Below, piece after piece: positions 11,055 to 16,740 of a DNA stretch of 29,714 nt. The stretch covers positions 1-29,714 of the IMG/VR virus record IMGVR_UViG_3300030107_004131. One strand, 5' to 3'. Numbering within the stretch: the first letter of the stretch is position 1; each line of letters starts with the position of its first letter. The notes below the pieces were generated by a model that saw only the letters and a program-made list of their open reading frames with translations, did no database searches and was not told where the DNA came from. Position numbers and translations under genes: made by a program. Origin of the DNA: a virus.

Positions 11055-13766
11055 GTGGCTAAATTCATCACATTCAACGGTGTAACTCTATACCATCCGG
11101 GTGGACTTACAAAGATTGACGCTGCTGCGATGGCTCAAGTTGGTGCTGGTCTTTCTGGCATTGTGGGTTTGGTTGGTGAAGCGGATGCTGGGCAACCTTG
11201 TACCGCTGCAGACCCAAAGGTTTATGAGTTCACAGACCCTGCTGCGGCAATGGAAGTATTTCAGTCTGGAGATTTGGCTGATGCCATTGATTTTGTCTTT
11301 AATCCTTCAAATGATGTTCGTATTCCTGGGGGCGCTCAAAAATTAATTTGTGTTAAAACGAATGCAAGTACTCAAAGTAGTGTAAACTTAACTCTTGCAA
11401 GTGATAACTCAAAGAATGCCATTACAGTTCAGTCTGTTGATTACGGTGTACACACTGCAGGAATTCAGGTAAAAGTAAGTCAGAACGCTACAGATGACGA
11501 CAAGTTTGATGCTACGGTTAACGATACTGTTAACGGAGTAGTTGAATCGTTTACCTCTCTTGGTGGTAAAGCGTTAATGAACGTTAAGTACCAAGGACCA
11601 TCCGATCCTGTTGTAGTAGAAACATTAACCTCCACAGCTACTGATAATAACCTTCTTACGGCAGGTGCGGGAATTGGTAATGCTAAGGCTGGTCAATGGG
11701 TTAGGATTAAGTCCGGTGCCCAATCTTTCATGAATGGTCAGATTCGAAGAATCATTAATGTAGATGCTGGTGAAAATAGAATTACTGTTCAGCCTGCCTT
11801 TTGTAACGCTAGTGGTACTAATACAGGTCCTACAAACGGTTGTGTATTTGAGGTAATTCGAACAGTCATTGGTCCATTTTATGTAGAAGAAGGGACAAGT
11901 GTTAGTAGCTTTAAACTTGAATCTTTACCTAGTGCTGCGGCTCATGACTCCGCATGGGCTGAAGGTGATCCAATTATAGCCATTGACACTACTGCTGCAG
12001 CCCTTTATGGGGCAATCGGTGGTACACAGGGTCCTGATTATGTAAAGGTTGTTAGTGGTACTGGGGCAGGTCAAATAAGAAGAATTTCAAGCGTTAATGG
12101 GAGCTTTGGTGATGACATAGTGAATAATCCAGTTGTTAATGTCACACCAGCTTTCGACACGCAGTTAGATACGACATCACGCATTAGCTTTATTAATGCC
12201 GTACATGATCCAACCAGTGTTGCGTCTGGTCACGGAGCCTTTGGAGTTATTGAAGGGGCAAATGGAGCTGCTAGTAAGTTAATACTAAGTTTTAGACCGG
12301 GTATTGGTGAAGATAACGGTTCGGGAACTGCTGTTGCTCCTAATGAGGCTGGTGCAGCTTATACAGTTTACGAATTCTCTCTTGGAAGCGCCGCTACAGT
12401 AAGCTCTGTAGTGAATAGTATCAATTCAAGTAATGGTAATAGTAACTCTCTAAACGCTACTGCAGCCACTGCACATAGTGCAGGAGCTTGGTCTGCACAG
12501 GTTGGTCCTGGTAGATCTGGGTCTCTCACTACAGATCGCTTCGACTTTATGCTTAATGGTGGTACAGAATTAACTACAGACCTGACGAATGGTGGTGTAG
12601 CTGCAGACCATTCAGACAAAGTTGATTTACTTTGTGACTTTAATCAACAGTTCTCCGGTACGTTTGGCACTAGTAGTGGATCATCCGTAAAGAAGCATCG
12701 ATTCTTGGATAACTTGGCGCAGTTAGAAGATGCTCTAGACAATCAAAGTATTCTTGTTAACGCAACTAGAGTTGTTACTAATCCTGGGGACGGCGCTGGT
12801 ATGCCAAAGTTCAACCCAACGTTCGCAGTGAGCCTTACAGGTGGGGTAAAAGGGGCAAGTTCTGCTTCCACAGTCGAGTTGGCGTTTGAACAGTTGATTA
12901 AGAAGCGTCACAACACTGCAGTAGCACTGTTTAGTAGTGACTACAGTAGTGGTGGAAACACGTTTACTATTGACTTTGTCCATAGTCAGTTGAAGAGTCA
13001 CGCTAACAATGGCGCTGGGGCACACCGAAACGAAGTGGATTGCATCGCAGCATTTGATGCTTCTGTAGCTGCATCTACAGCGTTGACCGATACGATTGAT
13101 AAGGCTAACGGGCTTAACAATAGAAACGTCGGTCTTGTGTATCAAAAGATTCAACGACCTGCAATAGATGGAACCAACAAGGTGTTTGGTCCAGAGATGC
13201 TTGCATGTGCAATTGCTGGTATGCAGGCTGCTGCGGTCGTCGGTGAACCTCTCACATTCAAGTTTATTAACGCTTTGGATATCGTTAGTCCTGTGAATGC
13301 AGATCCACAAGACAAAAACGACTCTGACCAATTGCTTCAGAACTCGGTATTGTTCTGTGAGAAAGTTCAGGGTAAAGGTTTCCGAATTGTTAGAAACTAC
13401 AGCACATATGCTCAGGACGACAATCTTGCATACACAGAACGTCATGTGAATGCAGAGTTGAACTATATGGCATACGACCTTCGATCTTTCATTGAGGATA
13501 GATTCACTGGATTGAGGGCAACACCAGCTACTGTTGCAAATATCAAGAGTGCGGTAATTTCCAAGTTGGAGATCTACAAGCGTGACCTTGAGATTATTGT
13601 GGACAGTACTGACGCAGTTACTGGGAAGCCTATAAATGCGTATAGGAATCTCAAGGTTACCATTTCGGGCGATATCGCTACAATTCGCTTTGAGATATTC
13701 CCGACAATTGGTATTAATTATTTCAAATTTGATATTGTTGCCCAACTACCAACAATTAGCGCGTAA
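11055..13766 (+). CDS. Contractile tail sheath protein, large variant
   Basis: 903 residues; GTG start chosen for AGGGAG seven bases upstream. The N-terminus (LYHPGGLTKIDA, LSGIVGLVGEADAGQP) matches the beta-rich sheath start that carries the GxxGxVGxA-type turn. The C-terminus (ERHVNAELNYMAYDLRSFIE, ISKLEIYKRDL, NLKVTISGDIATIRFEIFP, INYFKFDIVAQLP) is the typical sheath closing domain used in handshake contacts between subunits. Common sheath proteins are about 350-700 residues, so this one carries insertions: two beta modules at about 210-270 and 325-384, and a Gly/Ser/Asn-rich stretch at about 400-500. On contraction the sheath drives the tube into the host envelope. Identification is strong from both ends plus order. 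Confidence 0.88.
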   Translation: MAKFITFNGVTLYHPGGLTKIDAAAMAQVGAGLSGIVGLVGEADAGQPCTAADPKVYEFTDPAAAMEVFQSGDLADAIDFVFNPSNDVRIPGGAQKLICVKTNASTQSSVNLTLASDNSKNAITVQSVDYGVHTAGIQVKVSQNATDDDKFDATVNDTVNGVVESFTSLGGKALMNVKYQGPSDPVVVETLTSTATDNNLLTAGAGIGNAKAGQWVRIKSGAQSFMNGQIRRIINVDAGENRITVQPAFCNASGTNTGPTNGCVFEVIRTVIGPFYVEEGTSVSSFKLESLPSAAAHDSAWAEGDPIIAIDTTAAALYGAIGGTQGPDYVKVVSGTGAGQIRRISSVNGSFGDDIVNNPVVNVTPAFDTQLDTTSRISFINAVHDPTSVASGHGAFGVIEGANGAASKLILSFRPGIGEDNGSGTAVAPNEAGAAYTVYEFSLGSAATVSSVVNSINSSNGNSNSLNATAATAHSAGAWSAQVGPGRSGSLTTDRFDFMLNGGTELTTDLTNGGVAADHSDKVDLLCDFNQQFSGTFGTSSGSSVKKHRFLDNLAQLEDALDNQSILVNATRVVTNPGDGAGMPKFNPTFAVSLTGGVKGASSASTVELAFEQLIKKRHNTAVALFSSDYSSGGNTFTIDFVHSQLKSHANNGAGAHRNEVDCIAAFDASVAASTALTDTIDKANGLNNRNVGLVYQKIQRPAIDGTNKVFGPEMLACAIAGMQAAAVVGEPLTFKFINALDIVSPVNADPQDKNDSDQLLQNSVLFCEKVQGKGFRIVRNYSTYAQDDNLAYTERHVNAELNYMAYDLRSFIEDRFTGLRATPATVANIKSAVISKLEIYKRDLEIIVDSTDAVTGKPINAYRNLKVTISGDIATIRFEIFPTIGINYFKFDIVAQLPTISA
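11682..11864 (+). repeat. Beta module in sheath, copy 1
   Basis: Codes residues ~210-270: GQWVRIKSG, GQIRRIINVDAG, RITVQPAF, GCVFEVIR. Matches the module in the tail terminator (10502-10663) and copy 2 in this gene. Confidence 0.65.
12027..12206 (+). repeat. Beta module in sheath, copy 2
   Basis: Codes residues ~325-384: GPDYVKVVSGTGAGQIRRIS, then NPVVNVTPAFD and SRISFINAV. The SG-x-GQIRRI core and the V-x-PAF strand are shared with copy 1; this copy is more diverged. Confidence 0.6.
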
Positions 13767-15447: not shown

Positions 15448-15909
15448 GTGGCTAAAGAAATTTTTACTGGGGCGAGAGCCAAATTTTTTATTGATGGTGT
15501 TCCAATCGGATACTGTGCTGGAGTGAATGGCGAAGAAGCTATTGACTATGAGCCAGTACAGACTTTGGACTTCCTTCAAGTTCGTGAACATGTACCTGTT
15601 TCTTATCGTGCTTCGATGAGTGCAGCTTTCTTCCGTCTTATCGGTTCTTCATTGAAAGAGTACGCCGGTAAAGAAGAAGATGCGGGTAACCTTGAAATAT
15701 TCCCGAAGTTTAATAATATTCTGACATCGGGTGCCATGACTGCTGCTATTGTAGAGAACAAGAGTGCAGATGGTCCAAGAGTTATCGCTCAGTTTCAGGA
15801 CGTAAGAGCAGCGAGTAAGACATTCGACGTTTCGTCTCGTGGTATCGTGACTGAAAACTGTTCGTTTGTTGCGATCAACATGTTTGATGAGTCTGAGATC
15901 GATATTTAA
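15448..15909 (+). CDS. Tail tube protein (major)
   Basis: 153 residues from a GTG with AGGAG six bases upstream. Size and pattern fit the inner tube subunit of a contractile tail: GARAKFFIDGVPIGYCAGVN, then IDYEPVQTLDFLQVREHVPV, then RASMSAAFFRLIG, with a later long strand (RVIAQFQDVRAASKTFDVSS, GIVTENCSFVAINMFDE). Tube subunits polymerise as hexameric rings on the baseplate and are needed in many copies, which fits the separate leader and possible promoter in front of it. Assignment comes from length, beta pattern and position between the sheath region and the chaperone plus tape-measure genes. An alternative such as a decoration protein is less likely. Confidence 0.75.
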   Translation: MAKEIFTGARAKFFIDGVPIGYCAGVNGEEAIDYEPVQTLDFLQVREHVPVSYRASMSAAFFRLIGSSLKEYAGKEEDAGNLEIFPKFNNILTSGAMTAAIVENKSADGPRVIAQFQDVRAASKTFDVSSRGIVTENCSFVAINMFDESEIDI

Positions 15910-15938: not shown

Positions 15939-16412
15939 ATGAATGCGCTTACAAAAACCTTTTATATCGACGTGACATCAGAAATGGATGAGCGTCGTTA
16001 TAGCGGAACATTTACCACCAAAAAGCTTACAATGGGCGATCTCTCTATGATGGGGATGCGTAAGGCTCAAATGTCAGCAGGATTTAGTCACAACCCCGCT
16101 AGTGGAAGTGGTGTTGATATGGCTACGAACCTGATTAATGAGATGATTGTTCATTGTGAGGTTGCTTTGGTTCAGAGTCCAGATTGGTTTGATCCAAGAA
16201 ATCTTATCGATATGGACGTGCTTCGGTCTGTTTACGAGGAGGTAGCTTCGTTTGAGGCTACGTTTCTCGATAGAAAACGATCTGCTCAAGGGCAAGCCGT
16301 TAATAGAGGCAGCGCAGATCCAAGCAGCGATGAACCTCAAGGGCAAGGGGGAGCCTCTGGCTCCAATCAGGATTTGGTGGACAAAAAAGTACCAAAAGTC
16401 TCCCAACTCTGA
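15939..16412 (+). CDS. Tail assembly chaperone, short frame (gpG-like)
   Basis: 157 residues; ATG with GGGAG upstream. The folded part runs to about residue 112 (TKTFYIDVTSEMDERRYSGT, KKLTMGDLSMMGMRKAQMSA, LINEMIVHCEVALVQSPDWF, LRSVYEEVASFEATFL). The remaining tail is low-complexity (DPSSDEPQGQGGASGSNQ). It lies right before the tape measure, as lambda gpG and its relatives do. Those proteins bind the tape measure and guide tube assembly, and a fraction of ribosomes shift frame to make a longer G-T fusion. Here the next frame (16246-16740) continues without a credible start of its own, which supports the same arrangement. Confidence 0.7.
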   Translation: MNALTKTFYIDVTSEMDERRYSGTFTTKKLTMGDLSMMGMRKAQMSAGFSHNPASGSGVDMATNLINEMIVHCEVALVQSPDWFDPRNLIDMDVLRSVYEEVASFEATFLDRKRSAQGQAVNRGSADPSSDEPQGQGGASGSNQDLVDKKVPKVSQL

Positions 16413-16740
16413 TGAGTTTAGACGATATACGCTTTTTGAACTCATGACCGAGTTCTATGAAGACGTATACACTCATCGGCCAGACGATATGCCTTACCTT
16501 GACTTGCCAGAGACTGTTGCTGGCGATGATATGGTTAACAAGTGGGAGCGTGAGATCTCCGAAGGTGTTGACCCGGATATTCTTGAAGATCTGCCACCAG
16601 AGGTAGGGGAGAAACTCAAGAAGTGGAGTACTCGAATACACGAGTTAAAACAGGGGTCTGGTAGCTTTGTAGATGATCAAGATTTGAAGGATTTGTTAGA
16701 AGCATCTGATGATGCAGGTGGTTATAAGGAGACGTTCTGA
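16246..16740 (+). CDS. Tail assembly chaperone, frameshift extension (gpT-like)
   Basis: Open from 16246, just after a TAG, to the TGA at 16738-16740. The only upstream start-like codon is a TTG at 16252 with no ribosome site, and the internal ATGs at 16333 and 16444 also lack one. It overlaps the short chaperone frame by about 160 bases and lies one base forward in phase, so a fusion needs a +1 or -2 shift. The later part reads as ordinary protein (RRYTLFELMTEFYEDVYTHR, PDDMPYLDLPETVAGDDM, acidic C-terminus). With a -2 shift the fusion would be 267 residues. By analogy with gpGT, the extension would recruit tube subunits to the tape measure. Its TGA overlaps the tape-measure ATG. Confidence 0.65.
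   Translation, partial: LRLRLRFSIENDLLKGKPLIEAAQIQAAMNLKGKGEPLAPIRIWWTKKYQKSPNSDEFRRYTLFELMTEFYEDVYTHRPDDMPYLDLPETVAGDDMVNKWEREISEGVDPDILEDLPPEVGEKLKKWSTRIHELKQGSGSFVDDQDLKDLLEASDDAGGYKETF
16347..16352 (+). other. Candidate frameshift site GGGGGA
   Basis: In the short frame this is read GGG GGA. A P-site glycine tRNA on GGA can move back two bases onto GGG, after which decoding resumes at GAG (16351) in the extension frame. A second candidate is the six-A run at 16383-16388 (AAA AAA), which would also give -2. Up to 16352 the short frame has A or T in 21 of 30 third positions, against 8 of 29 in the other frame, so it is the translated one to that point. The true site therefore lies between about 16350 and the stop at 16410. 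Confidence 0.45.

Follow-up and report, generated by a model that had tools for sequence, protein, structure and literature searches.

In SPO1 (Herelleviridae), the annotation has gp11.1 made solely by +1 slippage, as the C-terminal half of gp10.2-gp11.1; this annotation may itself be a prediction. By our present reading, the slip site of SPO1 is TCC_TTT_CGT. A +1 product is also annotated in Adastra, and the haloarchaeal virus HSTV-2 has TCC_TTT_CGC. The chaperone of Moonbeam has been reported as a +1 case (PMC4299906), and TTT-CGC has been proposed as the site in the HF1 haloviruses (PMC7230728). Bacterial ribosomes tend to shift +1 on UUU_Ynn (PMC5009743), and UCC_UUU_CGU was identified by mass spectrometry as the site of a +1, and not a -2, shift in influenza PA-X (PMC3498833). 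Frameshift predictors have so far been without a general +1 motif (PMC10274946).

The +1 type of chaperone is already known from SPO1, and the locus analyzed here is a further case with an unusual A-site codon, CUC. The window, meaning the whole stretch of DNA analyzed, is a 29.7-kb IMG/VR virus record. It has the features of the SPO1 type: an overlap between tube and tape measure genes (as placed by position), a second ORF in the +1 frame, homology to gp10.2, and UUU_C. We interpret the pair as a gpG/gpGT chaperone of the SPO1 type whose long form arises by +1 slippage at ACG_UUU_CUC, a reading to which we assign a probability of roughly 90%. The sequences show the reading frames and their conservation, where the site lies and what it is in relatives, and a predicted fold of the first domain; the shift itself, its +1 direction, its efficiency, the role of CUC and the part played in assembly are inferred.

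The tail module and the chaperone reading frames

A contractile-tail module with sheath, tube-like, chaperone-pair, tape-measure-like and baseplate genes is present in the window (Table 1). At 903 aa, the tail sheath ORF is longer than usual; its best phrog_279 stretch covers only residues 443-897, and ~440 extra N-terminal residues lie outside it. The tape-measure-like gene is short (601 aa), with glycine-rich runs and zero family matches, and its role is taken from its position alone. A search for tRNA genes in the window found none.

Table 1. Coordinates of the tail genes and of the elements proposed in the chaperone overlap
Feature	Position	Strand	Basis
Tail sheath	11055-13766		phrog_279 profile match
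Tail tube-like gene	15448-15909	+	Position; phrog_985 virion structural protein
ORF1, short tail assembly chaperone, gpG-like, 157 aa	15939-16412	+	phrog_25000, tblastn, predicted fold
Extension, T-like half, +1 frame, 157 aa plus stop	16267-16740	+	Alignments; frame similarity vs null
Predicted fusion, gpGT-like, 266 aa, TTTC read as one Phe	15939-16740	+	
Proposed +1 shift site TTT_C, ORF1-codon context ACG_TTT_CTC	16263-16266	+	Conservation; change point
GGAGG, Shine-Dalgarno-like, 20 nt 5' of shift site	16238-16242	+	17/20 relatives
TTG in extension frame, rival initiation codon, not conserved	16252-16254	+	9 nt past GGAGG
GGGGGA, -2 site of the preliminary description, unsupported	16347-16352	+	Change point; conservation
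Six A, second -2 site of the preliminary description, unsupported	16383-16388	+	Change point; encodes extension motif
Tape-measure-like gene, 601 aa	16740-18545	+	Position only; no family match

The extension ORF is open from 16246, has a TTG at 16252 and stops at 16740, and its frame is +1 (equivalently -2) relative to ORF1. The preliminary description had stated that the two overlapping frames before the tape measure cannot be joined by a -1 shift and need +1 or -2, and this was confirmed: a -1 shift at AAA AAA (16383-16388) runs into a TGA at 16445-16447, ~60 bases downstream, which rules out a lambda-type -1 chaperone. In all 34 surveyed loci, a long upstream ORF precedes the extension, whose frame is +1 relative to it; the loci include close kin and are not 34 independent cases.

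ORF1 gave a profile match to phrog_25000, a tail assembly chaperone family (E 4e-5) that itself best matches SPO1 gp10.2 and gp11.1, and tblastn against phages returned SPO1-like chaperones (E 2e-5). The conserved domain of ORF1 ends at F109, at the proposed shift site. Residues 1-109 were predicted to fold with a pLDDT of 88.8, and the predicted fold matches Herelleviridae chaperones, with query TM-scores of 0.76-0.79 for JL and LpeD; ORF1 up to the shift site is predicted to be a complete domain. By arithmetic on the alignment offsets, F109 falls at about position 118 of phrog_25000, the same as F123 of SPO1. The two halves of the fusion were folded separately. The extension had no match among the profile families or, by tblastn, in the phage database, and its model (pLDDT 77) matched nothing in Foldseek. 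The hhalign alignment of the extension with gp11.1, which sets WWTKKYQKSPNSDEFRRYT against WIQKEFGVLPSDPRFTSLT, is weak (E 0.049, probability 1 percent). A sequence search of the PDB gave no match, and the best hit of the PDB fold search, the HK97 tail chaperone, was not significant (E 0.16). The earlier proposal of a tail-chaperone pair with a programmed shift into this frame is supported.

Probable position of the frame switch and conservation of the proposed slip site

Relatives were collected by searches of viral contigs and comprise close ones, with 45-61% protein identity, and more distant loci; those cited as L002, L003 and so on are further loci of the survey. One relative came from a Myxococcales MAG, found in a search of genome contigs. 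For the analysis of substitutions, we used seven sequences whose DNA aligns gap-free around the overlap. Upstream of TTTC, the variability at ORF1 codon positions 1, 2 and 3 was 0.30, 0.18 and 0.52, the pattern of ORF1 codons; between TTTC and GGGGGA it was 0.48, 0.40 and 0.23, already the pattern of extension codons, as it was past the ORF1 stop (0.61, 0.31 and 0.25).

In the stretch from TTTC to GGGGGA, the extension-frame similarity was 2.85 BLOSUM units per residue, compared with -0.08 ± 0.14 for a null in which the ORF1 proteins were held fixed and the codons recoded, and which ignores shared ancestry. The third frame shares the same ancestry, and its similarity was only 0.81 with 19 stops. 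The overlap of ORF1 and extension is not due to chance, as both frames stay open in relatives and the extension lies far above the synonymous-recoding null. Conservation of the extension protein sets in with its first residues, at TTTC, ~27 residues upstream of GGGGGA, and the best change point of the substitution pattern is 16263-16266. The change-point curve is flat within ~15 nt of this place, so the exact base rests on the conservation of UUU_C.

TTTC is invariant among the close relatives, and where the chaperone domain ends, 30 of the 34 loci carry UUU in the zero frame with C as the next base. The codon in the A site is CGN in most loci (including L003, L009 and L011), CUC in eight (the window, L002, L004, L040, L041, L042, L045 and L060) and CAC in two (L005 and L007). 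UUU is retained despite a bias toward UUC: L065 has 2 TTT vs 28 TTC, and HSTV-2 has 15 vs 119. The stretch shared by the two frames is just 17 nt long in BM15 and Twort, with ACC_UUU_CGN as the sole P-site +1 re-pairing site; UUU_C is also the sole re-pairing site of the overlap in L041, L042, L045, L047, L060, LysYB1 and LpeD. The site classes cluster on a tree of 25 fusions and yet show 8 changes. Because the classes changed several times, the A-site codon drifts while UUU_C stays.

In the remaining four loci, AAA with AGY after it stands about one codon further on (L012 at 3997, L013 at 3970, L014 at 3973 and L034 at 1491). AAA_AGY is a possible second type of +1 site, with AGY in the A site. 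Together with L036, which has UUU_CGU, these four loci make up a single supported clade, which suggests that the AAA type replaced UUU_C locally.

The upstream GGAGG element and the probable direction of the shift

Of 20 environmental loci, 17 have GGAGG within the 36 nt that precede the site, compared with 5.2 expected from synonymous recoding with the codon usage of each locus; the 20 loci are not independent, and GGAGG also occurs in distant ones. Its spacing is exact, at 20 nt before UUU_C and 23 nt before AAA_A. The stimulator of the release factor 2 site has a spacing of 3 nt, and those of -1 sites lie ~10-14 nt away; the GGAGG distance fits neither, and no stimulator is known to have a spacing of 20 nt (or 23 nt). 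GGAGG is possibly a new kind of stimulator.

This element could instead be a ribosome site, GAGGAGGT (16236-16243), from which the extension would be translated from its own start at TTG 16252. The 9-nt spacing between GGAGG and TTG is good for initiation, GGAGG is enriched in relatives, and a TTG is present in 10 of the 21 loci examined. However, TTG is gone and GGAGG kept in L004, L040-L042, L045, L012, L013 and L034, and in L004 neither the stretch leading up to the conserved start nor this start itself has an ATG, GTG or TTG in the extension frame. The extension frame of BM15 and Twort is not open until 5 nt before UUU_C. Independent initiation also leaves the invariant UUU_C in GC-rich genomes unexplained, and we consider it improbable. 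An initiator belonging to the extension had been named in the preliminary description as evidence against a frameshift; looked at in the relatives, it is not conserved. A start at TTG 16252 could act in addition to the shift.

For +1 slippage at UUU_C, we infer the following course of events. Most ribosomes would make the short gpG-like product of ORF1, and a minority would slip +1 at ACG_UUU_CUC. The P-site tRNA-Phe (anticodon GAA) would leave a G-U wobble on UUU and re-pair as fully cognate with UUC. The A-site CUC, a rare Leu codon here (33 of 663 Leu codons in the main genes of the window), may be read slowly and so give time for the +1 movement. After the slip, reading would resume at UCG in the extension, giving the 266-aa fusion in which FEATF is followed directly by SIENDLL and further on by WWTKKY. 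By analogy with lambda G/GT (PMC5009743), the short form would coat the tape measure and the long form would recruit tube subunits. Against this reading, the A-site CUC of the window differs from the CGN of the best-known cases.

A single-sequence fold of 16270-16350 was average (z 0.02) with respect to downstream RNA structure. In the consensus fold of the seven relatives, the slip site is part of an upstream hairpin; double changes occurred in only 2 of 31 pairs, and this hairpin is not claimed. Neither fold supports a downstream structure.

A -2 shift at the same UUU_C would enter the same frame as +1, so conservation cannot separate the two, and phage Mu is a precedent for the -2 direction (PMC5009743). 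The -2 movement would place tRNA-Phe onto CGU in the window, or onto AUU in L002 and L003, which is a poor fit, and the alternative of the A-site tRNA on UUC is poor too. Several loci offer no +1 re-pairing site in the overlap other than UUU_C, and the same motif in PA-X shifted +1 and not -2 (PMC3498833). We regard -2 slippage at UUU_C as very unlikely, a judgment made only because no -2 re-pairing there looks acceptable.

A Mu-like -2 shift had been proposed at GGGGGA or at the six A, which lie where the preliminary description located them, and either site reaches the correct frame. The six A are kept in all close relatives; this run codes for the conserved WWTKKY residues of the extension itself. 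The late position had been argued from third-position A/T counts (21/30 in the short frame, 8/29 in the extension frame) that favor ORF1 up to 16352. We reproduced these counts exactly, but they mislead as to the place of the switch: third-base composition of one genome is a poor guide within an overlap, and the substitution pattern across relatives opposes them. As change points, GGGGGA and the six A are worse by 10.1 and 14.7 log units, and the GGGGG run is interrupted in L003, L005 and L007. The extension is already conserved ~27 residues before GGGGGA and ~39 before the six A, and a switch at either place would discard these conserved residues, including the first predicted helix. A fusion peptide covering SIENDLLKGKPLIEAAQIQAAM could come only from an early switch. 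The TTT-C site at 16263-16266 had been rejected on the A/T counts; this rejection is not supported, as TTT-C is invariant in close relatives, recurs in distant phages and lies at the best change point. Given the change point, the substitution pattern and the conservation, a -2 switch at a late homopolymer is extremely unlikely.

Comparison with known systems

For the window, the likely site moves 84-120 bases upstream and the direction changes from -2 to +1. The survey also suggests a +1 motif, as very distant phages carry UUU_C or AAA_AGY at one defined point of the tail chaperone. With some hesitation, and at a little under even odds, we propose that the UUU_C with which the chaperone domain ends is an ancient +1 recoding cassette of contractile-tailed bacterial and archaeal viruses, one that works independently of stop codons, tolerates CGN, CUC or CAC in the A site, can be replaced by AAA_AGY and, in the environmental clade, has a selected GGAGG 20 nt upstream. 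Among the loci, the A-site codon varies naturally, and this variation and the candidate upstream element lend themselves to the study of stop-independent +1 shifting in bacteria.

Such a motif would allow misannotated pairs to be joined, as several gp11.1-like halves carry an RNA polymerase label. In CampHawk, Twort and LpeD, the frameshifted half of the chaperone goes under the name RNA polymerase (beta subunit), and PHROG 1316 has the same label; the halves so labelled are at 1967-2239 in L026, 1892-2350 in L028 and 1892-2362 in L030. This label on Herelleviridae chaperone halves is probably a misannotation.

The window and SPO1 have the same gene order and +1 geometry, their first domains are homologous, and UUU_C stands at the equivalent residue in both. 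It differs from SPO1 in having CUC and not CGN in the A site, an overlap past the site of 150 nt vs 12-60 in the SPO1 type, an extension that could not be aligned confidently with gp11.1, and GGAGG 20 nt upstream. The HSTV-2/HF1 group also has a +1 chaperone pair before the tape measure, with UUU_CGC near the end of CDS1 (PMC7230728). That group has archaeal hosts, a short overlap and CGC in the A site. Influenza A PA-X (UCC_UUU_CGU) and the amalgaviruses (UUU_CGN) work in a like way, by +1 slippage of P-site UUU_C that needs no stop codon, a likeness of the site only, as the genes and hosts are unrelated and the E-site and A-site codons differ; the CGN of their motif is absent in the window, which has CUC. 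Mu (-2) and lambda (-1) use another shift direction and other slippery sites, and the window is like Mu and lambda G/GT in its organization, with a short chaperone ahead of the tape measure and a frameshifted fusion as the minor form, and in its presumed function.
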